A DNA stretch of 26,573 nucleotides from a virus (IMGVR_UViG_3300035661_000288:1-26573); one strand, 5' to 3'; numbered from the stretch's first letter, positions 1-26,166 are shown. Notes: generated from the sequence alone by a model not told the origin. A program made the numbers and translations.

Positions 1-1923
1 GGCGATTTCGTCCTCGTGGGTGGGGGCGTAGGGGGGATTCTCACCCGTGCTAAAGGAACCGACCTTCTTGATGAATTGGCCCTTGTTGCCCCCGTTGTCC
101 TTCAGGTGGTTCAGGTATCGCTTGGCCTCGCCGAGGGTCTCGGAAGAGCCCCCGGTGAGGATGTCGGGGTAGGTTCGCACGAGGTAGTAGTGGCGCTCGT
201 CGCCGTTGGGGGACACGCTGATCTCGTCCACCAGTTCGATCTCATCGACGGCAGGGGGTCCGAGGGGAATCTTGCGGACCCACTTCTCCAGGACTTCATC
301 GCGGGTTCCGAAGGCGATCTTGCTGGAGCCTTCCTTGGTGACACCAGCGGCGAGGCCGGGGTAGCCAAAGTGCTTCAGGGCCTCGCTGAGTTCAGACAGG
401 ACGGAGTTGATGCGGCGATCAGCCTTGTTTGGCTCCAGACCGTCGCAGGTACGAAGCTGCTGGGCGAGGTCTTCGAACTCCTCGGCCATCTTGATGCCCT
501 TGGCCTTCTCTTCCTTGGCAGCACCTTTCTTGGCCTTGGCCTTGTCCTCTTCCTTGCGGATGGCCTCGCACTTGTGGCAGAGGTAGCCAGCACCTTCGCT
601 GTTCTCTACCATCTTGCCAACGGGCAAGGACTTGCCACAGTCCACACACTTGGTGGTCTTCTCGGCTTCCTTGGCGGCTGCCTGGACGAGGTAGCCCTTC
701 TTCTTGTCCTGCTGGGCCTTCATCCACTGGGGGCGACCGTCGATGGAGACGTCCGTAGTGCGCTGTTCGGCTGTCGTCGTCGTGGTGGTCCCATCGGCAA
801 CCGAAGTGCTGGTGGAGACGCCGTCACGGCCCTTGGCTCCAGGGTACCCGGAGCGAACTGCCTTGCTTCCCAGTTCCTTGTCCTTCTGGAGACCGGAGGA
901 GATGATGCCCTTCAGGGAGGACATGACACCATCAGGCAGGGTGCAGGTGTAACCCTTCTCCCCCTTGGTGATGAACTTCTGGGCCATGGGGGTCAGGCGT
1001 TCCACGGCCTTCTGGAAGGCTTGGTAGATACCGGGGTAGGATTCCTGGGCCTTGGAGAGGGGGACATCCCCGACCTCCTTCTGGAAGGCAGACCACACGG
1101 CATTCTTCAGGGCATCACTACCCTTGGGGGCGACGGCAGACACACCACCGGCAGGGGCGGGGGCCACGATGGCGGGCTTCGGGGGTGGGGGCGGAACGGG
1201 GGCGGCTCCCTTGGAGAAGCCGTAGAACTGCTTGGCCACGTCCATGCTGCTCGCGGCGGTCTTGTCGGAGGAGGTCTTCACGCCGGTCAGGTGCATCCCG
1301 TCGAGGAGACCGGCTTCCTTGAGCAGCGAGGCCCACTGGTCGCCGTCGATCTCGTGGCCCTGGATGTCCTTGAGGTGGAGGCTGTAGCTCGTGACCTCCC
1401 CGGACTTGTAGTTGGTGTCGCCGTCCGTGCTCACCCAGCGCAGGCTGTTGATGTCGGACGAACTGGGGTGAATGTAGTTGTGCTGTTCGAGTTCGCGGAT
1501 GACGTCGCTGCGGTCCCAAATCTCGTTCTTGACCTCGAAGCCACGCTGATCGGTGTCCCCGGCGTCGATGGATTCCTCGTCCCAGATTTCATAGGTCTTC
1601 GAGACGATGAACTGCTCTTCTGGGCCTTCATCTTCGCCCTCGGCGGAGGAATACAGCCAGAACTCTGAGCACTCCTCGCCGTCCTTGATCTCCGTGCGGC
1701 CACTGAACTCGAAGTGGTAGTCGTCCCCATCGGCGGCGGGCAGATTCTTGGCCTGACTCACGGGGAGCCAGCCGTTCATGGACCCGTCAATATCTTCCAG
1801 GACGTCCTTGGCCCCCCGACGCTTCAGGTCGGCAGAGACCTCGGCTAGGGTGCTGGCGATCTTGAGGGCACTCGTGACCACTGTGGGCTCGCTGGCCTTG
1901 CGCTTGTTGAACAACTTCGACAT
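1..1923 (-). CDS. Large phage protein with zinc ribbon; C-terminus beyond window
   Basis: The frame is open from ATG 1923 to the left edge, giving at least 641 residues without a stop, so the C-terminus is missing. AGGAG lies 7 nt before the ATG. Residues about 45-210 resemble a small stand-alone phage hypothetical domain that I know from other tailed phages (aromatic/acidic, with a W-x-S-T-D-G-D and Y-K-S-G-E core). A KTSSDKTAA linker follows at 216-224, then a proline-rich hinge (PPPPP) near 245. A zinc ribbon is visible as C426-x2-C429-x19-C449-x2-C452, followed by a Lys/Glu/Ala-rich, probably coiled-coil stretch. The gene begins 25 bp after the 991-residue gene ends and shares its composition. 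The role is unknown. A virion-associated or nucleic-acid-contacting protein is an inference from the zinc ribbon and the location. Confidence 0.85.
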   Translation of the reverse strand, partial: MSKLFNKRKASEPTVVTSALKIASTLAEVSADLKRRGAKDVLEDIDGSMNGWLPVSQAKNLPAADGDDYHFEFSGRTEIKDGEECSEFWLYSSAEGEDEGPEEQFIVSKTYEIWDEESIDAGDTDQRGFEVKNEIWDRSDVIRELEQHNYIHPSSSDINSLRWVSTDGDTNYKSGEVTSYSLHLKDIQGHEIDGDQWASLLKEAGLLDGMHLTGVKTSSDKTAASSMDVAKQFYGFSKGAAPVPPPPPKPAIVAPAPAGGVSAVAPKGSDALKNAVWSAFQKEVGDVPLSKAQESYPGIYQAFQKAVERLTPMAQKFITKGEKGYTCTLPDGVMSSLKGIISSGLQKDKELGSKAVRSGYPGAKGRDGVSTSTSVADGTTTTTTAEQRTTDVSIDGRPQWMKAQQDKKKGYLVQAAAKEAEKTTKCVDCGKSLPVGKMVENSEGAGYLCHKCEAIRKEEDKAKAKKGAAKEEKAKGIKMAEEFEDLAQQLRTCDGLEPNKADRRINSVLSELSEALKHFGYPGLAAGVTKEGSSKIAFGTRDEVLEKWVRKIPLGPPAVDEIELVDEISVSPNGDERHYYLVRTYPDILTGGSSETLGEAKRYLNHLKDNGGNKGQFIKKVGSFSTGENPPYAPTHEDEIA

Positions 1924-1948: not shown

Positions 1949-4924
1949 TTAGCGGATTCCGGTGACGAACTTCAGCGTGAGGACCAGGGTGGCGGGGTCG
2001 ATCTTCTCTGCCCTGGCATAGACCTCGAAGGTGAAGCCTTCACTGACCTCAGTCTCGTCGTTCCAGATGGCACCCTGAGCCCAGGATGACTTCAGGGCAT
2101 CGGCGATTTCGATGTCCGTCATGCTGGCGAGGATGGCCCGGAGCGTCTCGGCGGGGGCACCGGGGTTGGCCATCAGTGCGGTCGAGGTGATGAGAGCTTC
2201 TTTCAGGTCGATCTTGAACTCAGCGGGGACAGCTTGGAAGGGGTAGTCCCGCTTGCTCACACCAAAGCCAGCGATGAGGCTGCCGACGAAGTCACCCAGG
2301 ACGCTCTTGAGGAACTGGGAAAGCTGGAAGGTCTCAGCGGCTCCGGCAGTCTTGAGGCCAGCGGCCATGTTTATGCTGGAGGGGGTGAGGTTGTCCACCG
2401 TGCGGTAGAACTCACTCTGGTAGTTGGTGCCCCGGACGTTGTGCTCCTGGCGGAGGGGAGTGCCCTCAGACTGGTAGGGGGCGCGGATGCCACCGATACC
2501 ACCAGGGCCAGGGTTGGCACCCGTGGAGTCACCCAGGGGGGCTCCATCAGGGTTCACCATCATGTCCTCAGGGGTGCGGGGATTGGCACCAAGGGGGTCC
2601 ACAGCGTTGGGGTTGGGCAGGTTGTTCTCGGGGTTGTCCACGATCTCGCCCAGGAGTTCAGGGTAGAAGTTCTCCAGGACACGACCTGGGACCAGCAGGG
2701 AGATGGCCTGCTTGTCCATGGAGGCAACCACGGCCTCATTGTGCTGCTCGACCGTCGTCTTCACACCAGGGTCTACGATGGTGGAGCCCATGGCGTTCTC
2801 AACGATGGAGCGGAGTTCGGAGACGCTGTCGGTCAGCCAAGCCCAGTCAGCGGGCTTGTCTTCGATGGCCTGCAAGGTGGCGTTGCAAACCTGCATGACT
2901 TCCTTGTTGATGCGGAGGTCGTGGAGGCAGGCGAGATACCATTCAACCTTGTCGGCCAGAACTTCCGTGTTCACACCGGCCTGGAGTTCCACGCCAATGG
3001 CCTGGACCTTGTCGAGGAGGCGGAGGCCACGGCTGATGTTCTCAACGGTGAGGCCGGGGACGACCTCTTCGTCAGGCTCGCCGCCCTTCATTTTGACTTC
3101 TTCGACGTCCACGGCCTTCTTCCTGGCGGAGGCGTTGATGAGCGAGCGGTTCTTCACCGTGTAGCCCGTGCCGTCCTTCTGGAAGAGCCCCTGGGACTCA
3201 CCGAAGGCCAGGGCCTTCTTCCAGTCACCGAGGGTGTCCTTGAGCATGGCCTTGAGGGTGTCACCAGCGAAGTAGGTGCTCGTGCGGCCCGAGTGCTTGG
3301 AGACGAAGGAGTTCACTGCCTGGACAATGCCGGGGTCAACAGGCTTGTCCTTACGGTCGAAAAACCCAGCACTCTTGGGGTCCGGCCCATCCACGGTAGC
3401 GGAAGAGATGGTCTCCTTGGAACCGGCCTCGCCGTAGTCTGGGCGACTGCGGAGGCCCTCGGAAGACACACCAGCATCCTGGTAGGTGGTGACCTTGGCA
3501 GCTTGCATGAGTGTGGCCACCATGGTTCTGACCCGGCTGACCTTCAGTTCGGGATCGACGTTGTTCAGGCTGGGATCGTTGGGGTTGATGCGGGCGTCCT
3601 CGGGCATGATGATGTTCGTGCCGTGGACTTCGGGATCGGCCTGGACCTCTGCGTCCTCGGCCTTCTTGTCCGCCCCACTCTTGGGGTTGATCTTGACGAC
3701 CTTGGCTTCCACACCAGCGGGGCCACCGAGGTAGTCTAGGGCCTTCTGATACTGGCTGAAGTCGTGGGTGCCCATCATGGTTCCCATGACGAGGCCGCGA
3801 GGTTCGCTGGCGTTCTCATACTTGGTGGCGAGGCTGGGCTTCTCCCAAGCCCGCTCGGGGGCGTTGGCGTTGAAGTAGGTGGCCTTGCCACCCTTGATGA
3901 ACTTGATGACGTAGTAGGGCTGGGCGGGAGCGGCTGCCTTAGTGAGGCTCGCGGTCGTGCAGGCGTCACACACCAGGGGGGCGATGGCATCCCCGAAACC
4001 CAGGGGGGAGGCCGAGGCGACCAGCTTGGTCTTCTTGCACATGGGGCACAGATTACCCTGGGTGGCCCGCTTGTAGGCACCGGCCAGGGTGGAGGCGTCC
4101 ACCTTGAAGGGCTTGATCCCAGCGGCTCCGATGTTGGTCTGGATCTGCTGTTCCAGGGCCTTCACGACGGCGACTTCCTCGTCACTGAACTCGGGGTTCT
4201 TGTGGGCGGCGGTCACCCGGAACTTGTGGGCTGCGGCCTTCTTGCCCTTGACGACCATGGGGGAGTATTCGTCACCCACTTCAGCCGGGACGAGATCAGG
4301 GAAGGTGCGGTCGAGGCCCTCGGTGGCAACCGTGGAGGGCACCTTGAAGATGTTCTGCTGGGCTGGGATGGATTCGATCCGGTAGCCGGTGTCGGGGTCC
4401 AGGGCCTTCATCTGCTCGAAGACGTTGGACAGGCTGGGATTGAAGGGGGCGGAGAACACCATGTCCCGGAGGAAGTAGAAGATGGTGTCTTCGTTGAAGG
4501 GGAAGCTCACGTAGGAGAGGTTGTCGGCCCAGCTAGGGCAGAACACCATGAGGACGGCTTCCTTGCCGTCCGGGCCGGTGAAGATTTCTTCCTTGGCCAT
4601 CTTGAGCTTGTCGGAGTCCAGCTTGGTCCCACCCTGCTTGTGGAGGGTGAAGTCGATCATGCTCTCAGGGGACACGCTGTGCTTCAGGTTGGCCATCAGG
4701 AGGATGGTCGGGAAGCTCTCGCTGGAGGCACACACGCTGGGGGGCACGATGTAGAGGTCACCGAAGACGAGGTCTTGGCGGTAGCCCTTCTTGCTCAGTT
4801 CAAGCCTCTGGATGACGCCGCCCTTCTTGGCCTTCTTCACGCCTTCCTCGACGGTGGCGAGCAGCGTGACCATGGTGGCATCGGGGATGGTCGTGAAGGA
4901 ACGCAGGGCTTTGTTGGCGGTCAT
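1949..4924 (-). CDS. 991-residue phage protein with zinc ribbon, function unknown
   Basis: ATG 4924 is preceded by GAGG with 7 nt spacing, and the start lies 2 nt after the stop of the 173-residue gene, so the two are probably translationally coupled. The N-terminal 230 residues look like a compact alpha/beta fold without a motif I recognise. Residues 293-322 form a clear zinc ribbon (C293-x2-C296-x22-C319-x2-C322). It is followed at about 335-350 by a Y-Y-V-I-K...G-K-A-T-Y-F module that recurs in the 1395-residue protein. The middle is helical and acidic. Near residues 785-840 lies a Pro/Asn/Gly-rich low-complexity linker, and the C-terminal 130 residues look globular. Length and position fit a virion or injected protein, but no enzyme signature is visible. 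I do not recognise the family. Confidence 0.88.
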   Translation of the reverse strand: MTANKALRSFTTIPDATMVTLLATVEEGVKKAKKGGVIQRLELSKKGYRQDLVFGDLYIVPPSVCASSESFPTILLMANLKHSVSPESMIDFTLHKQGGTKLDSDKLKMAKEEIFTGPDGKEAVLMVFCPSWADNLSYVSFPFNEDTIFYFLRDMVFSAPFNPSLSNVFEQMKALDPDTGYRIESIPAQQNIFKVPSTVATEGLDRTFPDLVPAEVGDEYSPMVVKGKKAAAHKFRVTAAHKNPEFSDEEVAVVKALEQQIQTNIGAAGIKPFKVDASTLAGAYKRATQGNLCPMCKKTKLVASASPLGFGDAIAPLVCDACTTASLTKAAAPAQPYYVIKFIKGGKATYFNANAPERAWEKPSLATKYENASEPRGLVMGTMMGTHDFSQYQKALDYLGGPAGVEAKVVKINPKSGADKKAEDAEVQADPEVHGTNIIMPEDARINPNDPSLNNVDPELKVSRVRTMVATLMQAAKVTTYQDAGVSSEGLRSRPDYGEAGSKETISSATVDGPDPKSAGFFDRKDKPVDPGIVQAVNSFVSKHSGRTSTYFAGDTLKAMLKDTLGDWKKALAFGESQGLFQKDGTGYTVKNRSLINASARKKAVDVEEVKMKGGEPDEEVVPGLTVENISRGLRLLDKVQAIGVELQAGVNTEVLADKVEWYLACLHDLRINKEVMQVCNATLQAIEDKPADWAWLTDSVSELRSIVENAMGSTIVDPGVKTTVEQHNEAVVASMDKQAISLLVPGRVLENFYPELLGEIVDNPENNLPNPNAVDPLGANPRTPEDMMVNPDGAPLGDSTGANPGPGGIGGIRAPYQSEGTPLRQEHNVRGTNYQSEFYRTVDNLTPSSINMAAGLKTAGAAETFQLSQFLKSVLGDFVGSLIAGFGVSKRDYPFQAVPAEFKIDLKEALITSTALMANPGAPAETLRAILASMTDIEIADALKSSWAQGAIWNDETEVSEGFTFEVYARAEKIDPATLVLTLKFVTGIR

Positions 4925-4926
4925 GG

Positions 4927-5448
4927 TTAAACCTCGTTACGTGTGAATGCTGCGCTGTCGAGGCGATTAACCTCAGTTCGGAGATCAGATTCTCGGGTGG
5001 CCATCAGGGAGCGGAATGCCTTGAGGACGGCGATGACGGTGTCATCCCCCATCCCGGCCTCCTTGACTGACTTCTTGAGGACGACGGTAATCTCGCGGAG
5101 GACATACTGGAACTTGGGACCATCGAAGTTCAGGACGTCCTTCTTGCTGAGGGCATCACCTTCCTGCAAGGTCTTGCTGAGTTCGCGGAGGGCCTTGATC
5201 TGTTCGACCAGGGGCCGGAGCCTCCAGGTCTGGTTGGGGTCCACCTGAACCTGGGAAAGCTGCTCGTTGACGATGGCGATTTCACGGGCGATCAGCCGGG
5301 TGATGACGCTGACGTCTCCGGTGGGGTCGTCGATGAGGCGGATGATCTCCGTGAGGGTCCGGGCCTCGAAGCCCGTGATGCTCCCCGTGAGAGTGGCAGA
5401 CGATACCTTGTCGTCGTCGCCTATGACGAATACCCGTTCTTCGCTCAT
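4927..5448 (-). CDS. 173-residue helical phage protein, function unknown
   Basis: ATG 5448 overlaps the upstream stop in an ATGA arrangement (4 bp, 5445-5448), which is typical of translational coupling with the 519-residue gene. The protein is predicted mostly helical and charged, with no signal peptide or membrane segment. A central L-N-F-D-G-P-K-F segment near residue 110, followed by a helical bundle, has the flavour of a conserved phage structural hypothetical protein, though I cannot name a family. It sits between two giant cysteine-containing proteins, so it may be a small partner of that set; this is inference from context only. Confidence 0.85.
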   Translation of the reverse strand: MSEERVFVIGDDDKVSSATLTGSITGFEARTLTEIIRLIDDPTGDVSVITRLIAREIAIVNEQLSQVQVDPNQTWRLRPLVEQIKALRELSKTLQEGDALSKKDVLNFDGPKFQYVLREITVVLKKSVKEAGMGDDTVIAVLKAFRSLMATRESDLRTEVNRLDSAAFTRNEV

Positions 5449-7004
5449 TCCACGTCCACTCGTGAGGTCGCGGGGATCTCAACACCCAGGAGGGTGTCAC
5501 CGGGACCGTCATTGAACTCGATCTCCATGGCGTCAGCCTGCATGTCGTAGCTGGCCATGTCCTGGACGCCGTCCTGAACGCCCTCGTAGCTGGCCTGCTT
5601 GCTCCTCGCACGGTCCATGCCGGGGAAGGAGAGCAGGGTGCCACCCGTCAGGCCGCAGTGCATACCGGCGCAGCGATAGGAGCAGCCCGCACACTTCTTG
5701 GCACCGACGATGGCATTGCTGCTGGCGAGCTTGCCCTTGAGGAAGGTGCAGTCGATCTGTTCGAGGTTGACCTTGCCGCCCGTCTTCTTCAGGTCAGCGA
5801 GGAACTGGCCGAATACCTTACCGGCCTGCTGGGAACCGATGCGGCCCCGGACCAGGGAGTAAGCCTGACTGAAGTTGTGACCAGCCGTGATGAGCTTGGC
5901 GACGTCCTGGATCGTGGTGACCTCGGCTTCCTTGGCGGTGCCGCGAATGCTGACGACCTCGTGAGCGGCGGTGCGGGTGAATACCCGCTCCTCGTGGACG
6001 ATGCGGGCAGGGCCGGTTGCCTTCTTCTCGGCAGCCTGGAAAGCCTTTAGGGCAGCGTTGGCAGTCGGGGTTCCGTGCTCTTCCCGGACGGCCTCGAAGG
6101 CGGCCTGGAGGTCCATGCCTGCGTCCATCTTGGAGGCCAGGAGGGCGATGCGGCCCTGGACTGGGCTCTCGGGGCGCTCGGCTACGGTCATCTTGTCACC
6201 AGCGGTGCGGACGACGGCGTTGGCGTGGCTGCGGGTGGAGACGACCTCAGCCGGGGGCTGTTGGCCACCGTTGTGGATCTCCTTGAGGGCAGCTTTCTTC
6301 GTGGTGTTGAACTTGGCGATGATGACCTTGCGGGCCTCGTCCACACTGGCCACGATGGGGAGCTTGTAGAGGTTGCAGCGCCCATTGGAGCACTTCTGGC
6401 AGGAACCGCAGGCGGCGATCCGGGTGACGGAAGCAGCCTTGATGGAACCGCCCTTGGCCTTGATGAACTCGTGGGACTTCGTACAGGAGCCGAAGTGGTC
6501 GGGGTTCAGGTAGCTCAGGCCCATCCCACCGGCATGGCTCTCCAGGAAGTCGTGGGCGAACTGCTTGTTGAACACCCGATTGACGGTCTCCAGGCCAGCG
6601 GCGATCTTGGCGGGGCTGATCCCGAGGTGCAGGGCTGCGGTGATCTTGGCCTTGACCTCAGCGTCGGACATCGTGGGGATGCCGTCCGAACCGGCCTTCT
6701 GGCCGGAGATGCGGCCCATGGCGGTCCCGAGCAGGCTGTCGTTGTTGTCGGCAACACCAGCGGAGCGACCCCGCCAGTTCTCCTGATTGCGGACGGCTGC
6801 GGTGACGCCACCACCGGGAACGGCGGTGTGGTCGCTCTCCCCGGCAAGAGCATCGAGGAACTCGACGTCGGCCTCATCGGTGGAGATGTCACGGAAGTCC
6901 TCTCCCCTGTGAATCCCCTCGGTCAGAGTGGAGTCCTGGGGGTCGGGGGTGACGTCATCCAGGATGGCGTCGATCACAGAAGCGTAGACGATGTGCTTGC
7001 TCAT
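5445..7004 (-). CDS. 519-residue protein with two matching five-cysteine clusters
   Basis: ATG 7004 has AAGGGA upstream at a normal distance. Two metal-binding-type clusters are visible. The first is C174...C199-x2-C202-x2-C205-x4-C210, followed by N-L-Y. The second is C419...C438-x2-C441-x3-C445-x4-C450, followed by G-L. Each starts with a Cys-Thr pair 18-24 residues before the cluster, so the two appear to be an ancient internal duplication. Between and before them lie short helical repeats near 118-145, 285-325 and 365-405. Ten cysteines in an otherwise cysteine-poor protein suggest zinc or, less likely, iron-sulphur binding. The gene lies 12 bp downstream of the 120-residue gene and overlaps the next by 4 bp. 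I do not recognise the family. Confidence 0.87.
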   Translation of the reverse strand: MSKHIVYASVIDAILDDVTPDPQDSTLTEGIHRGEDFRDISTDEADVEFLDALAGESDHTAVPGGGVTAAVRNQENWRGRSAGVADNNDSLLGTAMGRISGQKAGSDGIPTMSDAEVKAKITAALHLGISPAKIAAGLETVNRVFNKQFAHDFLESHAGGMGLSYLNPDHFGSCTKSHEFIKAKGGSIKAASVTRIAACGSCQKCSNGRCNLYKLPIVASVDEARKVIIAKFNTTKKAALKEIHNGGQQPPAEVVSTRSHANAVVRTAGDKMTVAERPESPVQGRIALLASKMDAGMDLQAAFEAVREEHGTPTANAALKAFQAAEKKATGPARIVHEERVFTRTAAHEVVSIRGTAKEAEVTTIQDVAKLITAGHNFSQAYSLVRGRIGSQQAGKVFGQFLADLKKTGGKVNLEQIDCTFLKGKLASSNAIVGAKKCAGCSYRCAGMHCGLTGGTLLSFPGMDRARSKQASYEGVQDGVQDMASYDMQADAMEIEFNDGPGDTLLGVEIPATSRVDVE

Positions 7005-7016
7005 GTTGACGGTCCC

Positions 7017-7379
7017 TTACAGCGTGAGATCAGCGAGGATGGTGTTCAAAGTATCCTCGGGGTTGGCGGCATCTGCGGCGAGGAGTGATTCACCGTGGTC
7101 CACGGAGGTGGACTCGGTAAGACGCTTGATGCCACCGTCCGCTGTGACCTGCCAGAAGTCACGGGACGAGGGGCACTCATACATGTTGCCTGCAACCCGC
7201 TGGAGGTTGAACCGGGCGATGGTCGCCTTGGCCTGCTTAGACAGGGCAGCCGTCTTCGCAGCAGCGGTTTTGGCAGCGGCCTTCGTCTGGATCTCTTGTA
7301 GAGCATCCGCGAAGAGGCTGTCATCGCCGTTCTGGTTGGACCTGAGTGCATGAGATGGGGTGTTGCGGTAGGAGGGCAT
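7017..7379 (-). CDS. Small 120-residue hypothetical phage protein
   Basis: ATG 7379 has a GGAG element upstream (CTGGAG, spacing about 8 nt). Residues 30-55 are an Ala/Lys/Thr-rich amphipathic helix. This is followed by a small Y-E-C-P-S-S-R-D-F-W-Q-V segment near residue 68 that looks like the core of a compact beta fold. The C-terminus is acidic. The gene is separated by 12 bp from the 519-residue gene and probably shares its transcript. Function is unknown; codon use matches the neighbouring large genes, which supports it as real. Confidence 0.75.
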   Translation of the reverse strand: MPSYRNTPSHALRSNQNGDDSLFADALQEIQTKAAAKTAAAKTAALSKQAKATIARFNLQRVAGNMYECPSSRDFWQVTADGGIKRLTESTSVDHGESLLAADAANPEDTLNTILADLTL

Positions 7380-7461: not shown

Positions 7462-8181
7462 TCAGTAGGATGCCTTGGACACCAGGACGTGCTCGAAGTC
7501 GGGGTCGGTGATTGAGATTCTGAAGGAGCCGAGGACGCCGGGATCACGCCGGAGGACATGGGTGTATTTGTCCAGCTTCCGTTGGTTGTATCCCTGGCCG
7601 CTGGAAGATGCCTTGTCGATGAGGCCGTGCAAGTAGGCCCCCAGGGCGAGTTCCTTGTCGGTGTCCTGGGCCAGGAGGGTCTTGGCGGTGTGGCTGAGGG
7701 CACGACGAACATCAGGCCGGTGGACCCTGAACTTCTTGGCCACCAGGGTGAAGCTGTGGACGTTCCGATACTCGTCGATCATCATAGCCGTGGAAACGCC
7801 CTTGACGAGTTCATTGAGTCCTCGGGGGGACAGGATGGGGTCCATGTCTTCCACGGTGGGAACACCGAAGAGAACGACGGAACCCAACTTCTTGACAGCC
7901 ATCCTGAGCTTTGACGAGCAGACGGTCTGGGTGGAACGGTAGAGCTTGGCGATGCACCACTGAGGTCGGTTGAGGAGGTAGTAGGCCAGGAGGATCTCTT
8001 GATCTTCTGGAGGGAGTAGACGGAGGTGCTGGATGAAGTCTTCGAAGTTCTCGCGGATGTAGGTTCCGATGTGCTCGGCCATCATGTCGGCCTGAGTCTC
8101 CAGGGACAGACAAGTGTCCGCCGTAAGATACTCGGCCTCGTCGTGATAGCCCTTTGACATCGCCCTCGCGGCGACAATCAT
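7462..8181 (-). CDS. Helix-turn-helix protein resembling sigma-70 region 4
   Basis: Residues 55-99 read as a sigma-region-4-like unit. L-P-P-E-D-Q-E-I-L-L is followed by an I-A-K-L-Y-R-S turn and a recognition-like helix ending K-L-R-M-A-V-K-K-L. A second helix-turn-helix-like segment lies at about 143-170 (F-T-L-V-A-K-K-F-R-V then V-R-R-A-L). It may be a phage-encoded sigma-like or late-transcription regulator; a small-terminase-type DNA-binding protein is an alternative. The start is uncertain. ATG 8181 has no ribosome binding site. ATT at 8206-8208, in frame and nine codons upstream, has a perfect AGGAGG 6 nt before it. ATG 8157 has only a close GAGGG. It follows the GIY-YIG gene and precedes the 120-residue gene. 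Confidence 0.8.
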   Translation of the reverse strand: MIVAARAMSKGYHDEAEYLTADTCLSLETQADMMAEHIGTYIRENFEDFIQHLRLLPPEDQEILLAYYLLNRPQWCIAKLYRSTQTVCSSKLRMAVKKLGSVVLFGVPTVEDMDPILSPRGLNELVKGVSTAMMIDEYRNVHSFTLVAKKFRVHRPDVRRALSHTAKTLLAQDTDKELALGAYLHGLIDKASSSGQGYNQRKLDKYTHVLRRDPGVLGSFRISITDPDFEHVLVSKASY

Positions 8182-8236: not shown

Positions 8237-8911
8237 TCAGTTGATGGTAGTTACAGGCTTGTTCTTTTCTGCTAGGGCCAACTGTTTAGCCAGTTTATTG
8301 GCACGACGGGTCGCGTGGCCCTTCAATACGTTCTGCTTTCTGGCTTCGGGGTCGGTGGCCTGCATACGCTTCAAGGTGGCCGCTGCAATCCGGGCCGCAC
8401 CTTCAGCGGACATGGGCTTACTATTGGCTGCCCCAATCTTTGCAGCCCAGGCAGCCTTCTCCTCATCCGTGCGGGACGCTAGGGCATCTTTGATCCGCCC
8501 CCTCGATACCTCAGTGTGCTTGAAGCCCTTCATGGCCTCCACACGGGCAGCCTTGGTAGCTTCCGGCCACTGGCGTCCCCGCATGAACCCACCCTTGGCC
8601 TCTCCGGCGATGTTATAGCCGTTCTCCTTGGAGTTGAACCGCTGGAGAGCTTCAGTCTCCAGGGTTTCAAGTTCGGCCTCGGAGCACTCTCCGAGCAGGA
8701 CGAGTTGGAACGCAGCTTCTCCGTGCTTGTCGAGGGAGCGTTGCAGCTTTGGTGAATGGTGCCGTCCGTTGCGAAGCTCCCAGAGGTGACGACGCCACCG
8801 CTTAGTCATCTCCAGTGATGACACGACATACCACTTGTCTGTGATGACGTTGTGAATCCCGTAGATCCCAACCTCACACACCAACTTTGGGTATTTCCGT
8901 TTCGGAGCCAC
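8237..8911 (-). CDS. GIY-YIG homing endonuclease with NUMOD3-like tail
   Basis: GTG 8911 is preceded by AGGAGA with a short spacer. The N-terminal 100 residues are a GIY-YIG nuclease. G-I-Y is at 15-17, and W-Y-V-V-S-S sits where Y-I-G-S-S is usual. A conserved arginine segment (K-R-W-R-R-H) follows, then L-Q-R-S-L-D-K-H-G, an acidic L-E-T-L-E-T-E stretch and a closing G-Y-N-I. Near residues 130-150 a K-G-F-K-H-T-E...I-K-D-A-L segment matches a NUMOD3 DNA-binding repeat, and the tail is basic. By family knowledge such freestanding nucleases cut intron- or gene-specific sites and spread by homing. Codon use appears less G/C-biased than in the flanking genes, consistent with transfer. It splits the 1395-residue gene from the helix-turn-helix gene without interrupting either. 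Confidence 0.92.
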   Translation of the reverse strand: MAPKRKYPKLVCEVGIYGIHNVITDKWYVVSSLEMTKRWRRHLWELRNGRHHSPKLQRSLDKHGEAAFQLVLLGECSEAELETLETEALQRFNSKENGYNIAGEAKGGFMRGRQWPEATKAARVEAMKGFKHTEVSRGRIKDALASRTDEEKAAWAAKIGAANSKPMSAEGAARIAAATLKRMQATDPEARKQNVLKGHATRRANKLAKQLALAEKNKPVTTIN

Positions 8912-9035: not shown

Positions 9036-12000
9036 TCAACTCATGTAGATAACGGCTTCGTATTCACCGGAGCGGATTTTGTCGCGGACCACATCTTCGT
9101 CCTCGGCACCCTCTTCTTCACCAACGGGAACCTGCTGGTCCGTGGCGCGGTCGGAGTAGACGACGACGTATAGGTCGACTTCACCGAAGGTATGAGAGAG
9201 GTCGGAGAGCTTCTGGCCAACCTCCTCTTCGTAGTCACCGTCCCAGAACCCGGCACCATGACCGTTGCGGGTCAGCCAGAAGTCAGAGGCCACCTGGGAG
9301 TCATCGAGACCTTCGAGGAGATCCCCGGCCTGCTCGATGAAGGATTTGCAGTCAGCGTGGGCCTTCTCCTGGGCTTCGTTGTCGATGTCGTCGATGCTGA
9401 AGTTGGAGTCGAGAGGCTCGCCACCGTTGGGGCTGAAGTTGTCGCTGGAGGACCACAGGGCAGTCTCCAGGTAGGAGCGGACGAAGTCGTTCACACGCCA
9501 GTCGGGCTCGGGGGTGACGACGTCAGCCTTCTTGGTGTTGACCTTGGCGATCATGAGGGTGTGGCCCTTGGGGACACCGGCAGTCTTGGCGGCGGACTTG
9601 GCACCCTCTTCATCCAGGTAGCGGAGGCCCCCGGCGTTCTTCGTGGCGGCGAAGTCCTTGCCGTCGAAGTAGGTGGCCTTGCCACTGGCGTCTACGGCCT
9701 TCAGGACGAAGTAGGAGGGCAGTGCCGACCCCATCTTCGCGCTGGAGGTCTTGCTGTAGTTCGCCTGATTGTATTCCTGGTGATGTTCGTCCTGGGTGGC
9801 TTCATCCAGCCACTCGCCATCGTTCTCTTCGTCCCACTCGTCTTTGGAGATGGGCATGAAGTCGAATACATCTTCATAGAAGTGTCCGAACTCCTCGGTG
9901 CCCACGGTGTCGATGGTGGCACCGATGTAGTTGCCATGGAGTTCGTTACCACCGATCACGAAGGTCGGGCGAAGTTCCACGGGGAACTGGAGGACTTCAC
10001 CGGCACCCATGGGGGACCGGGTGTAGCCGCTACCGCGCACGAAGCTGCTGAAGGATTCCACACTGAAGTAGATTTCCACCGGCAGGCCGTTGGGGTTGTC
10101 TTCCTCTGAGCGGCAGTCAGCCTTGAGGGCAGCTTCGTCCTCGATGGTGACACCAGTGACCTTCAGGAGGTCACCACGCACGTTGCTCAGGCCATGGCTG
10201 TAGTCGTGACAGTCGAAACTGTCGATCTCAGGCAGGGAGGTCCAGGTCAGGGCATCCGTGGAGGGGTCGTAGGTGGCCGAGATGTGGCCGTCGAGCCCCT
10301 TGAGTTCCAGGGTGATCCCAGCACCAGGGCCAGCGGTTTTGTCGGTGCTGGAGGTCTTGGGATCATCGGTGCCCGTGGGCTTGTTACCCGGGGCCTTCGT
10401 GAAGACCACGAAGCCGTTCTTCTGGATCTCTTCGAGGGGATCGTAGAGTTCATACTGGGGATACCACCAGAGATCACCCAGGCCGACGATCTCGTCTCGG
10501 TTCTCATCCCACTCCACATCATTGGTGATGATGGGGGCGTCCGTGAGGGCTCCGATCTTCTCGGGGGACAGCCATTCCCAACCATTGGAGGTGGCGTCTT
10601 CCATGAACTCGAAGATGTCACGGCACTCGGCGGCAAGGCCGTCATGGTCGCTGATCTTCAGAGCACCATTGGGGAGCAGTTCGATGTTGTGGCGGAGCTT
10701 TCTGGCCTGCTTGGACTTATGAGCCGACTTGACGCTGGCGAGGGAGAGCCCACGGCTGCGGACGCCGGGATCGGGATCCAGGACGCCCTGGTAGTTATTC
10801 TTGGCGGGCGTCTGGGCCAACTGGCTCTTCAGGGCGATGATCTTCTGGATGATGGCATCCTGCTTGGGGCTGTCGTCAGGCACGGAGAATACCTGCTGGC
10901 GGAGGGCGCGGATCTGGTTCTCGATCTCCGCACGGTTGCCCACCCGCTTGGCCTTGAGAGCCTGCTTGGCGGAGGCTTCGACGGGGAACTCTTCACCGGC
11001 CTCTTCAGCGTGAGCCTTATCTTCAGGGGTCGTGTCCAGTTCCACACCGAGATTCTCAGCCAGGGCTTCGAGGTATTCAGCGGAGGTGTCGATACCATCG
11101 TAGAGTTCCTGGAGAGCTTCCTGGACCTCTTCGGGCTCTTCCTCAGCGATGCGCTTCAGGGCAGCGTAGCGGGGGGCCTTGACGGAACCCTTGTGGGCCG
11201 GGGAGGCGTCGTATTCACCGTTGTCGATGCTCTCACTGTAGTCCTTGGCCATCTCTTCGGCCAGGGCCATGCGGACGGGCTTGGGGAAGATGTTCTGGAC
11301 CTTGTCGCCGGGGGCTCCGAACTCCTTGACATACTTCCGAGCACCCTCATCGACCAGATACAGCCAGAGCTTGGGGGCCAGGGTGGGATCGTAGGTGCCC
11401 TTGGCCTTCCGGCGCTGCACGTTCTTGATGATGGGCATCATCTGGCTATGGTAAAGCTGGTAGTCGTTCTCGATGAAGAGGCGGAGTTCCGTCTGGGCCT
11501 GCTCGTCGCCTTTGATCTCGATCTCACCAACCTTGGGGGCAGCCCACTTGTTGGTGGCTTCCTTGTCCTCACCCTCGGCGTCTCCACCCAGGTGTTCGAC
11601 GAGGGCTTCCACCTTCTCAAGCTGCTCCTCATAGTGAGTCTTGAGTTCGCCCAGGGCTTCCAGGACGGCCTCGGGCTCCTCCTCGGCGAATCGCTTCAGG
11701 GTGGCGAAGCGCGGAGCCTTGGGAGCCTTGGCAGCCTTGGCCGCTTGGCGATCACGAATGGTAGGGCGCACGTCGGCCTCCTCTTGGTCAATTTCGGGCA
11801 TGACAATGTTGTCGGGGGTGATGTCGGAGGCAACCACCGACGAGGCTTCGACGGGGGATAGCTCTTTTTTCTTCAAGGTGTTGACGAGGCTGCGGAAGGT
11901 CTCACCAGCGGGGGCACCGCTGCTGTTGGCGAAGGCGTCAATGGCCTTGGCGAGGGCACGGCGGGTATGGTAGAAGTTCTGCTTGCCCGTGCCGGTTGCC

Positions 12001-13223
12001 GACGTCCACTCTTCCAGTGCATCAGCACGGGCGGCGTCACCCTTGTAGGGGTTGTCCACGAGGATGTCGAACATAGTTAGGATGCGGCGGGCACCCGTGG
12101 GATTCTCCGTCCGGGAGAGGTAGGTGGCGAAGGCATCCCGAGTGGACTTGACGGCCATGTTGGAGATGCCGTTCTCGTTGCTCTCGTCGGCGAGGCTTCG
12201 GACACCAGGGGGGACCATGTCGAGTAGGGAGGGCTTCCCGCCGTCCCAGCCTTCGGGGTTGTCGCCGATCTGAGATTCAGGGATGTCCCTGTGGCGCTTT
12301 AGGATGAATTTCTTCACGATGTCCGAACCCGCCGTGGACTTGCCTTCGAATGGCAGGATGCGGGACATGATGAAGTTGGAGACCCGCTTCTCCAGGGGGA
12401 GGCTCTGGTCACCCTTCGTGGGGTCGAACTTCTGGAGGATGGTGAGGCCGGATGCCCCGTTCCCGGTGCCGGGAGCGTAGAGCAGCTTGGTCAGCATCTC
12501 GTAGATGGCCTCTTCCAGGGTGTCGTCATCCTTGGTCCACCGGAACTTGCGGTAGACGCTCAGGAGGAGACCGTCCCAGTTCTTACTGGTGTCAATCGGC
12601 AGGCCAGCTTCCTGGATAGCCGTATTGATATAGAGGGAGAAGTAGGTGCCAGCAGCTTCCTTGAGGGCGGCGATGAGCCGACGCCAGGGAGCGGGGACCA
12701 TACTGAGGCCAGTCTTGGCAGAAATGACATGACGCTCAATACCCGAGGCGGACTTCGCCTGGATGATAAGCATGTCGTCACCGACAAGATTGGAGGCCAC
12801 GATCTTCAGGGCCGAGCCAGTCTTCGCACTGTAGGCGGTGGAGCCCACGGGGAAGGCAGAGGCGATGGTTCGAAGGCTACCCGTCAGGAGGAGCGGGGGG
12901 TAGGGTTCAGAGATGTCAGGCTGCTGTAGCGTGAAGTCCGGCGTTTCCTTGGCCTTGGCCTTCTCTCGCTCTTCCAGGTAGACTTCAGGATCGAAATCCT
13001 CAGCCTTCTTCACCCCGGCAGCGATGAGTTCGGTCTGGATCCGGCCCTCAGCCACACCATGACTCTCGGCATAGCTGACGGCGGCTTCCACACTGCTTGC
13101 AGCCTTCTCGCGGAAGGTCACAGAGCTAAAGGCGTCAGACGTGGAAATCGGAGCTACAGAAGCCTTCCGCTTCGGGGTCTCGACGGGAACTACCCCGGCG
13201 AAGACAGAGGCAGACAGCTTCAT
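9036..13223 (-). CDS. 1395-residue mosaic phage protein with sigma-like segment
   Basis: ATG 13223 has AAGGAG with 6 nt spacing. Residues about 225-300 resemble sigma-70 region 2: L-E-E-A-I-Y-E-M-L, then K-F-D-P-T-K-G near 263, then a helix ending F-I-M-S-R-I. Residues 360-433 resemble a degenerate region 4, with a T-G-T-G-K-Q-N-F-Y-H-T-R-R-A-L helix pair. A 45-residue acidic/helical module starting K-A-P-R is duplicated (about 500-545 and 680-727). Residues 843-945 (E-K-I-G-A-L-T-D-A-P) and 1270-1340 (F-W-L-T-R-N-G-H-G-A-G-F-W-D) match domains that I know as small stand-alone phage hypothetical proteins. KTSS linkers sit at 956 and 1158, and a G-K-A-T-Y-F module at 1170-1195. Catalytic motifs are absent. 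A role in transcription or in the virion is inference. Confidence 0.9.
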   Translation of the reverse strand: MKLSASVFAGVVPVETPKRKASVAPISTSDAFSSVTFREKAASSVEAAVSYAESHGVAEGRIQTELIAAGVKKAEDFDPEVYLEEREKAKAKETPDFTLQQPDISEPYPPLLLTGSLRTIASAFPVGSTAYSAKTGSALKIVASNLVGDDMLIIQAKSASGIERHVISAKTGLSMVPAPWRRLIAALKEAAGTYFSLYINTAIQEAGLPIDTSKNWDGLLLSVYRKFRWTKDDDTLEEAIYEMLTKLLYAPGTGNGASGLTILQKFDPTKGDQSLPLEKRVSNFIMSRILPFEGKSTAGSDIVKKFILKRHRDIPESQIGDNPEGWDGGKPSLLDMVPPGVRSLADESNENGISNMAVKSTRDAFATYLSRTENPTGARRILTMFDILVDNPYKGDAARADALEEWTSATGTGKQNFYHTRRALAKAIDAFANSSGAPAGETFRSLVNTLKKKELSPVEASSVVASDITPDNIVMPEIDQEEADVRPTIRDRQAAKAAKAPKAPRFATLKRFAEEEPEAVLEALGELKTHYEEQLEKVEALVEHLGGDAEGEDKEATNKWAAPKVGEIEIKGDEQAQTELRLFIENDYQLYHSQMMPIIKNVQRRKAKGTYDPTLAPKLWLYLVDEGARKYVKEFGAPGDKVQNIFPKPVRMALAEEMAKDYSESIDNGEYDASPAHKGSVKAPRYAALKRIAEEEPEEVQEALQELYDGIDTSAEYLEALAENLGVELDTTPEDKAHAEEAGEEFPVEASAKQALKAKRVGNRAEIENQIRALRQQVFSVPDDSPKQDAIIQKIIALKSQLAQTPAKNNYQGVLDPDPGVRSRGLSLASVKSAHKSKQARKLRHNIELLPNGALKISDHDGLAAECRDIFEFMEDATSNGWEWLSPEKIGALTDAPIITNDVEWDENRDEIVGLGDLWWYPQYELYDPLEEIQKNGFVVFTKAPGNKPTGTDDPKTSSTDKTAGPGAGITLELKGLDGHISATYDPSTDALTWTSLPEIDSFDCHDYSHGLSNVRGDLLKVTGVTIEDEAALKADCRSEEDNPNGLPVEIYFSVESFSSFVRGSGYTRSPMGAGEVLQFPVELRPTFVIGGNELHGNYIGATIDTVGTEEFGHFYEDVFDFMPISKDEWDEENDGEWLDEATQDEHHQEYNQANYSKTSSAKMGSALPSYFVLKAVDASGKATYFDGKDFAATKNAGGLRYLDEEGAKSAAKTAGVPKGHTLMIAKVNTKKADVVTPEPDWRVNDFVRSYLETALWSSSDNFSPNGGEPLDSNFSIDDIDNEAQEKAHADCKSFIEQAGDLLEGLDDSQVASDFWLTRNGHGAGFWDGDYEEEVGQKLSDLSHTFGEVDLYVVVYSDRATDQQVPVGEEEGAEDEDVVRDKIRSGEYEAVIYMS

Positions 13224-22664: not shown

Positions 22665-23594
22665 TTAGTCCTCCTTTGGAATCAGGCGTGAGAGATCCTT
22701 GAGGAGGCGGTTGATCTTGATGATTCCGTCGTCATCGTCATCGTAGACCGTCACATTGCTGGGAGCCTTCTTGGGCGGGCCGTAGGTCTTCACAGGCCCC
22801 TTGCGGGTGACTTCCTGCTTGACGACCACGGGTTCGGGCTTCTTGCTCTTGGCAGGCTCTTTCTTTGGGGCTTCCTTCTTGGCCGGGGTCTCAGGCTTCG
22901 TCGGATAGGGTGATGGGGTCTTCGGGGTGGTCTTACCAGGGGCCTTCGTCTTCGGGGCCTCATCATCGACCACCTTGACGTTCTTGCCCTTGCCGGGAGC
23001 CTTCTTAGGGGCCTCGTCCTCGTGCTTCTGGAGGACACGATCCACTTCCTTCTGCTTCTTCTTGGCGTCGTCGTCCCGGTAGCGTTCCAGCAGGCGGGCG
23101 ATGACAGGGGTGATGCGGTCGCTGACAACCTTGATGTGCTTGCAGATGACGAACTGGAACCTCTTCCCCTCGGTGGGAGGTTGGAGCATGGGCCGGGGCG
23201 TCCCATAGAGAGCATCACCGTCGAATAGGTTCCACTGAGCCCCCCAGTAGAGGAAGGCGGGGCAACTGCACTGCACACGGACATCCAGGTTGTCCACCGT
23301 GGATTCGCTGTCGATCTTCGTGGGGTCGAACTTGATGCTGACCTTGTGGCCACGGGGATCCGAGTAGGATTCCTTACAGACCACACGGTAGGTCAACAGG
23401 AACGCTTTGGTGTCCGTCCTGGTGACGCTGGCTAGGCAGTTCGGGGCCTTCTTGGTGGAGAACTCGGAGGTCAGGGCGACAAGCTCGTTCAAACTGAAGG
23501 CGAGCTTGTAACGACCCTGCCCCCGATGAACCCCTAGGAGGTTGATCGGGAGCCAGAGTCCGTCTTCATTGGGAGACCTGCCGTGACCACACAT
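22665..23594 (-). CDS. Phage protein with SWIM-like zinc motif and Lys/Pro-rich tail
   Basis: ATG 23594 has GGGAG upstream. The globular N-terminal 165 residues end in C109-x-C111-x39-C151-x-H153 (C-S-C-P-A-F-L-Y-W then I-C-K-H-I). This matches the CxCx(n)CxH layout of SWIM zinc fingers, which elsewhere mediate DNA or protein contacts. Residues about 190-275 are a Lys/Pro/Ala-rich disordered linker with P-K-K-E and P-K-T repeats. A run of five Asp precedes a short C-terminal helix. It lies between the Ala-Pro-Thr-Glu protein and the beta-rich tail genes. It could be a capsid-internal or neck DNA-contacting protein. The motif is clear; the function is inference. Confidence 0.83.
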   Translation of the reverse strand: MCGHGRSPNEDGLWLPINLLGVHRGQGRYKLAFSLNELVALTSEFSTKKAPNCLASVTRTDTKAFLLTYRVVCKESYSDPRGHKVSIKFDPTKIDSESTVDNLDVRVQCSCPAFLYWGAQWNLFDGDALYGTPRPMLQPPTEGKRFQFVICKHIKVVSDRITPVIARLLERYRDDDAKKKQKEVDRVLQKHEDEAPKKAPGKGKNVKVVDDEAPKTKAPGKTTPKTPSPYPTKPETPAKKEAPKKEPAKSKKPEPVVVKQEVTRKGPVKTYGPPKKAPSNVTVYDDDDDGIIKINRLLKDLSRLIPKED

Positions 23595-23615
23595 GCTTGC
23601 TTCTCCCGGAAGGGG

Positions 23616-24083
23616 CTACTTCTTCTTGCCCTTCTGGGGAGCCTTGGCGGCAGCGGTCTTCGGCTCTTCAGCCTTGACTTCCTTGGCAGGGGCCTTTTCC
23701 TCAGTGGGAGCTTCCTCAGCGGGAGCTTCCTCAGTGGCAGGGGCCTTTTCCTCAGTGGCAGGGGCCTCAGTGGGAGCTTCCTCAGTGGGAGCTTCCTCAG
23801 TGGCGGGAGCTTCCTCAGTGGCGGGAGCTTCCTCATTGGCGGGAGCTTCCTCATTGGCGGGGGCGGCTACGGGGGTGTTGACGGTCTCGGTGAGCCAGCC
23901 AGCGGCGACCATGGACATCACGGACGTCAACGAGCGGTTGAACACGCCGACGCTGCTCTGGTTGCGGTAGACAGCGAGCTTGTTCGTGGGCTCGGTGTGG
24001 ACGCAGATGTCGGCGGCTCGGATGTAGAAGTCGTCGTCACTGAGGTAGATGGTCTTGCTGGCGGTAAATTCACGCTGTTGCAC
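23616..24083 (-). CDS. Small virion-type protein with Ala-Pro-Thr-Glu repeat tail
   Basis: The start is GTG 24083 with GGAGG 7 nt upstream. Residues 1-72 form a compact domain (I-Y-L-S-D-D-D-F-Y then L-A-V-Y-R-N-Q-S-S-V-G-V-F). Residues 74-133 are tandem A-P-A-T-E-E / A-P-T-E-E units, followed by a Lys-rich end (G-K-K-K). Such low-complexity tails are flexible and extended, and occur on exposed phage capsid or head-tail proteins. The gene ends 21 bp before the SWIM-motif gene. It may be a head-fibre or decoration protein, but no family is recognised. Repeat number is likely to vary between relatives. Confidence 0.78.
   Translation of the reverse strand: MQQREFTASKTIYLSDDDFYIRAADICVHTEPTNKLAVYRNQSSVGVFNRSLTSVMSMVAAGWLTETVNTPVAAPANEEAPANEEAPATEEAPATEEAPTEEAPTEAPATEEKAPATEEAPAEEAPTEEKAPAKEVKAEEPKTAAAKAPQKGKKK
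23690..23866 (-). repeat. Coding tandem repeats (A-P-x-x-E-E units, about 18 bp)
   Basis: Units of about 18 bp (15-bp variants) encode A-P-A-N-E-E, A-P-A-T-E-E or A-P-T-E-E, and some insert a lysine. Adjacent units near 23770-23866 are nearly identical at DNA level, which suggests recent slippage or unequal recombination. All lengths are multiples of three, so the frame is kept. Confidence 0.85.
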
Positions 24084-24861: not shown

Positions 24862-26166
24862 CTAAAGGGGGAGAAGGGCCGTGGCCGCAGGACCAATGGG
24901 GCACCCCCGACCACTCAACCTCAGCCAGAGCCCAGCCTGCCTCCACCGTTCAAACCTCTCCGGGGTGCCCAGGCCATTCCTGATGTCGAGCATCCCACTC
25001 AAGATGTTGTAGGCACGACACCGCACCTTCCAGTTCTTACGCTCCTCCCAGAGGGCGTCCTTGTCACCAGCGTCCCATGCCCTCCCTAGGGCCTCATGCT
25101 CCTCAGCAGAAATGGCCTCAAAGGCTTTCCTCGCCCGAGTCACACCCTTGGGGATGTTAGTCTTTCGTAGCTCGTGGGCACTCAGTTGGCCCTCGGGTAG
25201 ACGGTAACCCCTGCCCAGGCTGGTTGTCGCGGGGATGAGCGTATCGAACTTCAAATTGCCGGATGCGTGGAGCCAGAAGGACGCCTGACGCCATGACTTC
25301 TTGTTCTTCTCCGTGGCGTTACCCAGACGGATCAGGAGGATGCCGGTTAGAACTGTGTAGGCAGTCCGGGATGACGCGAAGGGCTTACGCAGGGCGACAA
25401 GCTCATCCTCAGTGGGGACAGCTAGGGCGGCTACAAATGCCTTCGTTTCTGCCTCGGTGTAGTCTGGCATCTTGGCCAGGGCCAGGGAGGCTGCTCGCCG
25501 CATCCTGGTGTCCTCGGATTGAACGTGGCCTAGTAGGGCTTGGCTGATTTTCTTGCGAGTGGCCTCATCCCTTTTCCTGCCATAGGTCCAGTGGTCTTCA
25601 CCAGAGGGCTTGTTTGTAAATGCAGGATGCTCAGGATGTTCCAAGAAGAACTGATTGCGTGTTGCCGACATATTGGCCTTAGTGTCATTTCCATGCTCCC
25701 GACCCTGGAAGCCAAACCCGGAGTGGACGGGCCTACCCTTCATAATCTCCGATCTACGCTCCCTGGCTTTCAGGCACCAGGGCTTGCCTAACCCTCGGGC
25801 GGTCTCATAGGCTGCGGCGATCTCTGCAAGGAACTCCTCAGAGTATAGGCTGCGTTGGAGCTTCTTAAATTGGACCCCCACCATCATCTTGAATGCCTGT
25901 CGAACACTGGGTTCACCCGGAAGTGCCCTAAAGAGGTAGTAGTGGGCAATGAGGTGGTCAGCAGGGCAGAGGTTCACCTGATTCCAGGGGTGCTCGTCCC
26001 AGGAAGCATAATCGGGGAAGGCCGATTTAGGGAGGATGTGGTGCCTGTCTATAAGGCCAGATGCGGAAGAATGAGTGCGGGGGTGGGTGGGCAGCACAAA
26101 GGCTAGGTAACGGTCTACCCAGGCGATGTCGTGGTGCTTGGTAGTTAGAAGGGCTTTGATGTCCAT
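24862..26166 (-). CDS. HNH homing endonuclease with NUMOD3 and duplicated C-terminal module
   Basis: ATG 26166 has GGGGAG 6 nt upstream. The HNH core is at residues 40-76: D-R-H-H-I-L-P-K-S, then W-N-Q-V-N-L-C and H71/H75. NUMOD3-like segments follow near residues 192-215 (W-T-Y-G-R-K-R-D-E...I-S-Q-A-L-L-G). The C-terminal half repeats: residues 236-303 and 348-419 share A-Y-(T/N)-(V/I)-L-(T/S)-G...I-R...W-R-Q-A...W-L-x-x-S-G. I do not know this repeat; DNA recognition is the obvious guess. Freestanding HNH nucleases of this type spread by homing. The gene sits directly after the capsid-gene terminator, a common insertion context, and its codon use is less G/C-biased than its neighbours. Confidence 0.92.
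   Translation of the reverse strand: MDIKALLTTKHHDIAWVDRYLAFVLPTHPRTHSSASGLIDRHHILPKSAFPDYASWDEHPWNQVNLCPADHLIAHYYLFRALPGEPSVRQAFKMMVGVQFKKLQRSLYSEEFLAEIAAAYETARGLGKPWCLKARERRSEIMKGRPVHSGFGFQGREHGNDTKANMSATRNQFFLEHPEHPAFTNKPSGEDHWTYGRKRDEATRKKISQALLGHVQSEDTRMRRAASLALAKMPDYTEAETKAFVAALAVPTEDELVALRKPFASSRTAYTVLTGILLIRLGNATEKNKKSWRQASFWLHASGNLKFDTLIPATTSLGRGYRLPEGQLSAHELRKTNIPKGVTRARKAFEAISAEEHEALGRAWDAGDKDALWEERKNWKVRCRAYNILSGMLDIRNGLGTPERFERWRQAGLWLRLSGRGCPIGPAATALLPL

Follow-up and report, generated by a model that had tools for sequence, protein, structure and literature searches.

A putative sigma-70-type module in a giant protein of the late virion block of soil jumbo phages

The viral DNA stretch IMGVR_UViG_3300035661_000288:1-26573, here called the window (26,573 nucleotides in full), carries on its minus strand at positions 9036-13223 the gene for a multidomain protein of 1395 residues, a homolog of gp345 of the Tunturiibacter phage Tunturi_5, which is a myovirus jumbo phage of Acidobacteriota (309 kb). 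A preliminary description of the DNA had proposed that a segment of this protein, encoded at 11925-12560 and corresponding to residues 222-433, holds a sigma-70-like core, sigma factors being the bacterial proteins that direct RNA polymerase to its start sites. From a family-level profile relationship, the order of predicted helices and a set of conserved residues, it appears, with moderate confidence, that residues ~195-432 constitute a strongly diverged sigma-70-type module which would act together with the host RNA polymerase (RNAP) and is related to gp3, the annotated sigma factor of the phage clade. Within the segment, Tunturi_5 gp345 is the sole tblastn match in an annotated phage; the whole 1395-residue protein matches 252 phage records, most of them at a C-terminal domain described below.

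Domain organization of the 1395-residue protein

Several unrelated domains are joined in this one polypeptide, all encoded on the minus strand. First, a small N-terminal beta-barrel of KOW/SH3-like type occupies residues ~115-172 (12708-12881), with AlphaFold strands at 129-168; it is matched in Foldseek by EF-P and ribosomal KOW-type domains, and is missing, as an alignment gap, from the stand-alone 301-residue homologs. Next comes the sigma-like module, which begins with a helical block similar to sigma region 2 at residues 195-312 (12288-12641), delimited by AlphaFold helices, the hhalign alignment and conserved residues. The block includes the KFDPTKG motif at residues 265-271 (12411-12431), found in the sequence and the family alignment, of which Phe266 is invariant. 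A disordered linker follows at residues 313-346 (12186-12287), where the predicted local distance difference test (pLDDT) score is below 50 at about residues 314-351, and the same region contains a conserved NILDTEEHA stretch in the family alignment of the relatives. The module closes with a four-helix domain similar to sigma region 4 at residues 347-432 (11928-12185), likewise delimited by AlphaFold helices and hhalign, the last two helices of which form a predicted helix-turn-helix around TGTGKQ. Finally, the remainder of the protein has two copies of a helical repeat, recognized in the sequence at residues 503-547 (11583-11717; APRFATLKRFAEEEPEAV...) and 683-726 (11046-11177; APRYAALKRIAEEEPEEV...), and the C-terminal phrog_1915 domain at residues 1244-1352 (9168-9494; E=9e-20), which is a mobile phage module also present inside the gp350 homologs of loci L007-L015. 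The phrog_1915 domain is widespread in phage records, many of which are Mycobacterium phages.

The structure was predicted with AlphaFold from 28 family sequences with a mean pLDDT of 73 (numbering in the segment model plus 97 gives the protein residue). In the model, the small beta-barrel is followed by helices at residues 195-205, 216-226, 233-249, 277-289 and 298-312, and after the disordered stretch by four helices at 347-372, 375-390, 396-410 and 414-432. Region 2-like helices, a linker and a terminal helix-turn-helix are the order expected of a sigma2-linker-sigma4 fold, and the predicted helix order of the segment fits it. The details read from the sequence in the preliminary description are borne out by the model: the acidic helix lies at 233-249 before the FDP motif, the motif at 265-271 is followed by helices 277-289 and 298-312, and the TGTGKQNFYH stretch thought to resemble a helix-turn-helix is found at residues 410-419 (nucleotides 11967-11996), where the last two helices, 396-410 and 414-432, come together. 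The chance expectation of F-D-P-x-x-G given the composition of the protein is 0.014, a low figure that proves little because the motif was chosen post hoc.

Two other candidates at the gene were dismissed, namely a plus-strand open reading frame (ORF) of 555 residues antisense to it, regarded as a GC-rich frame artefact, and an Rpb4-like match to PF03874 (E=0.09), which is below the cut-off and was taken to be due to chance.

Relatives of the segment and comparison with sigma factors

The segment alone, used as a query against viral contigs, gave no matches, and relatives were collected via conserved neighbour genes in two overlapping sets of 70 and 46 viral contigs. Residues ~98-465 of the protein have 36 distinct homologs in proteins that range from 301 to 1968 residues and come from jumbo phages related to Tunturi_5. 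The family was found in 11 of the 13 contigs tested; the other two are only partial, at 84 and 98 kb. One subfamily, that of loci L007-L016, has the segment as a stand-alone gene of 301 residues and the helical-repeat part as a separate gene of 156-163 residues, and a two-copy helical-repeat protein of 156-167 residues has its own gene in L006, L007, L010 and L016; the window protein is a fusion of the segment with the helical-repeat part, to which the phrog_1915 domain has been added at the C-terminus. Because the segment exists as a gene of its own in L007-L016 and is fused to other parts in the window, it is, as judged from these gene sequences, a true domain rather than a random stretch.

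The 31 family members in the conservation alignment are only 18-25% identical to the window protein, and five residues are nevertheless invariant in all of them: Trp216, Leu263, Phe266 (the Phe of FDP), Phe292 and Phe365. Position 284 is aromatic in 31 of 31 sequences and is aligned to the Trp of the RpoE FYTWL stretch, which belongs to region 2.3 of the extracytoplasmic function (ECF) sigma factors.

For the profile comparisons, an alignment of 49 real sigma factors served as the hhalign reference, with 44 other phage families as decoys and 60 column permutations. The segment family aligns to the sigma factors with a score of 33.6 (P=3.2e-4) over 142 columns, and the alignment is collinear, covering region 2, the linker and the helix-turn-helix of region 4 in that order. 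The controls reached at most 16.9 for permutations of the sigma alignment, 15.9 for its reversal and 25.5 for the best of the 44 decoy families. The region 2 and region 4 parts each exceed the permutations alone and align to the correct sigma regions. When the 4,299 distinct ORFs of the loci were ranked with a sigma hidden Markov model (HMM), the first ten positions were taken exclusively by members of the segment family or the neighbour family, and in a whole-phage contig scan the ECF-sigma profile TIGR02937 falls on a 301-residue homolog (E=0.0099, profile positions 50-154).

The relationship extends to Tunturi_5 gp3 (L213:3240-4220), a protein annotated as an RNA polymerase sigma factor which no Pfam model detects and which is present in 11 of 12 relatives. 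The gp3 family scores 38.3 (P=4.7e-5) with the sigma factors, and by this profile evidence gp3 is a core gene of the clade that encodes a divergent sigma-like protein. No other phage family tested matches the profile of the segment family as well as that of gp3, with a score of 39.6 over 164 columns, where the next of the 44 other families reaches 24.7, the permuted maximum 20.6 and the reversed profile 13.9. In Tunturi_5 and in contig G001 the gp3 gene lies within ~12-13 kb of the giant-protein gene; unlike the segment, gp3 is encoded by a separate, unfused gene beside those for the terminase and DNA polymerase, and its sigma match is somewhat clearer.

A number of results weigh against kinship of the segment with sigma factors. 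The segment-family matches in the HMM top ten all come from one closely related subfamily; the score drops to 20.2 with an ECF-only sigma alignment and to 15.1, which is not above the permutations, with one of groups 1-3 only, and the automatically clustered full-length family alignment scores only 20.4. The 1395-residue protein alone has no sigma match on the segment in Pfam, PHROGs or NCBIfam, no curated sigma profile is above its cut-off (the best homolog reaches 12.9 bits with TIGR02937 against the required 42.9), and a family profile search of the PDB sequences returned no sigma chain. A Foldseek search with the whole-segment model likewise has no sigma among the top 50 of PDB and BFVD; the lists are dominated by the barrel, the only part with consistent matches, and a sigma fold of the segment is not proven by the model. 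The sigma-like core proposed in the preliminary description thus holds at the level of the family, whose profile alignments to both sigma factors and gp3 score above every decoy and permutation and pair the matching regions in the expected sequence; the single protein and the curated cut-offs do not show it, and the fold search listed no sigma. The lack of a curated profile or fold match would be accounted for if the segment were a helical bundle with no kinship to sigma factors, in which FDP and the helix-turn-helix occur by chance. This is considered quite unlikely, since the scores with both sigma and gp3 are higher than those of the permuted, reversed and decoy-family controls, and since the collinearity spans two domains.

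The neighbouring region 4 protein and the late virion block

The next gene downstream of the giant gene, apart from an intervening endonuclease gene, lies at 7462-8181 on the minus strand and encodes a protein of 239 residues with a sigma region 4 domain and a second helix-turn-helix. It was missed in the preliminary description and is a clearer sigma-type protein than the segment itself. Residues 40-100 match TIGR02937 (E=1.2e-4) and NF009183 (E=8e-4), the best match to antitermination protein Q (PF06530) within the family has E=1.9e-5, and Foldseek superimposes the protein on sigma4 of SigD with a template modelling (TM) score of 0.80 and a root-mean-square deviation of 1.7, as well as on the SigD4 and SigL sigma4 domains and chain C of an RNA-guided transcription complex; these matches are either below the curated cut-offs or have a high Foldseek E-value with a high probability, and are mutually consistent. 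The likeness to Q and to the SigD and SigL sigma4 domains, in both sequence and fold, is confined to residues 40-105, and unlike them the protein has the second helix-turn-helix and, at its C-terminus, a conserved part peculiar to it. The homolog in Tunturi_5 is gp346, whose label "exonuclease" is likely a mis-annotation; in the GTDB genomes searched for the gene none was found. The region 4 gene is present in 73 of 73 loci with a giant-protein homolog, within about 9 kb and sometimes inverted. Relative to the giant gene it is inverted at a distance of 1.3-4.7 kb in L004, L034, L033, L054 and others, and the pair is therefore not always co-transcribed.

The synteny with Tunturi_5 continues in order beyond gp346, with 7017-7379 corresponding to gp347, 5445-7004 to gp348, 4927-5448 to gp349 and 1949-4924 to gp350. 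The block in Tunturi_5 has tail-fibre genes on one side and the terminase on the other, with the genes for the sheath, protease and major head protein upstream and that for the portal downstream, and by this gene order both the giant-protein gene and the region 4 gene are within the late virion block, as the preliminary description had supposed for the former.

This setting bears on an unlikely alternative, that the module descends from a sigma factor or gp3 and has turned into an internal or structural virion component, scaffold-like or DNA-packing, which now initiates no transcription. A place in the late block, flanked by tail-fibre and terminase genes and close to those for capsid, protease and sheath, would suit such a component, as would the annotation of gp345 as a "virion structural protein", the variation in size from 301 to 1968 residues through fusion of unrelated modules, and the dedicated sigma gp3 that 11 of 12 relatives already have. 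The label of gp345, however, was assigned computationally: the functions given in the Tunturi paper are predicted ones, and its main text does not mention mass spectrometry (PMC11924767). Furthermore, the linker, the helix-turn-helix and the region 2.3-type aromatic residue are kept despite the low identity, and the region 4 protein accompanies the segment at every locus, both of which argue against this alternative.

Other features of the window are further from the subject. The gene between the giant and region 4 genes (8237-8911, minus strand) encodes a GIY-YIG homing endonuclease (phrog_314, E=1e-20); because L007, L010 and L011 have the same intergenic insertion and L014 and L003 lack it, the gene resembles a mobile intergenic element. 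A second homing endonuclease is encoded at 24862-26166 (minus strand; phrog_655, E=2e-20). The minus-strand gene at 22665-23594 encodes a protein with a Lys/Pro-rich repetitive tail, the first ~200 residues of which are conserved in L007-L016, and the ORF overlapping it at 23534-23854 (minus strand), with RKLPPLRKLPP repeats, is probably an artefact frame. At 1-1923 (minus strand) lies the gene for a 641-residue protein with a zinc-finger-like patch at residues 411-465, for which weak profile matches to treble-clef and HNH/endonuclease VII families were obtained.

Possible function and comparison with known systems

The sigma-like module and the sigma-type neighbour gene together suggest that the virion-gene block of these phages includes several components by which host transcription is steered. 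The sigma-70-type reading would assign a role to each part of the module: the region 2-like helices may dock on the clamp of the core enzyme of the host, and the region 4-like helix-turn-helix beyond the flexible linker, the 7462-8181 protein, or both, may contact the beta flap and upstream DNA. The small barrel precedes the module, which in this phage is fused to unrelated mobile domains. The phage would in this manner recruit the host polymerase, likely for the expression of late (virion) genes, with T4 gp55 and gp33 as the working analogue. The host enzyme is the likely target because no RNAP beta subunit (PF00562) was matched in 12 related phage records, which are mostly fragments (control 14 of 14; single-subunit polymerases were not searched), and the idea that the clade encodes a multisubunit RNAP was dismissed on the same result.

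A further reading, compatible with this scheme and adding to it a delivery step, takes up the virion-borne transcription factor that the preliminary description had raised as a possibility and is that of a polyvalent injected protein, in which the module would be packaged in the head with its fused domains, enter with the DNA and direct the first transcription. The archetype of such proteins is DarB of phage P1 (PMC5512222), and the likeness lies in the large multidomain build, the exchangeable modules such as the phrog_1915 domain common to the gp350 homologs, the location in a late-gene block and the nearby gp350, which is labelled DarB-like. A short N-terminal leader, MKLxA, also recurs in many family members, but it is short and not universal, and the 301-residue version is made without the other domains. 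Moreover, unlike in polyvalent proteins, no enzymatic domain is recognized in the 1395-residue protein, and the 2017 survey of polyvalent proteins does not mention sigma (PMC5512222). Delivery with the DNA appears improbable as an account of the module. That the soil jumbo-phage clade packages and injects a sigma-type factor within its giant virion proteins, so as to redirect the host polymerase from the first minute, is similarly very doubtful. Such a factor would be the sigma counterpart of the virion RNA polymerases that N4 and phiKZ inject.

To our knowledge, the phage sigma factors described so far are small proteins that stand on their own. In this clade of soil jumbo phages, most of which are uncultured, a core gene appears to hide a sigma-like module in virion-block proteins of up to ~2000 residues. 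If functional, the module would imply that host transcription is run by several sigma parts, some split and some fused, comprising the segment, the region 4 protein and gp3; if it is packaged, the phages would inject an initiation factor for which no polymerase of their own is required. The cultured member Tunturi_5, grown on Tunturiibacter, makes both claims testable.

With the ECF-type sigma-70 factors the segment has in common a putative two-domain architecture, with the order of the predicted helical domains, the FDP-type loop, the aromatic-Leu pair of region 2.3 and the helix-turn-helix near the end; it differs in being below every curated cut-off, in its N-terminal beta-barrel, in the far greater length of the protein and in the unrelated C-terminal domains. 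A second comparison is with T4, where late transcription depends on the factors gp55 and gp33 (PMC7892883, PMC2988020), and with group 2 of the jumbo phages, thought to rely on the host RNAP with phage sigma factors and gp33 (Iyer et al. 2021, PMC7824862). The likeness to T4 is one of architecture: a phage apparently without a multisubunit polymerase of its own would combine a specificity factor with a small region 4-type protein, and the 7462-8181 protein, with its predicted sigma4 fold, might by analogy be the flap-binding partner. Unlike T4 gp55, the segment has a region 4-like end of its own and forms part of a giant protein.

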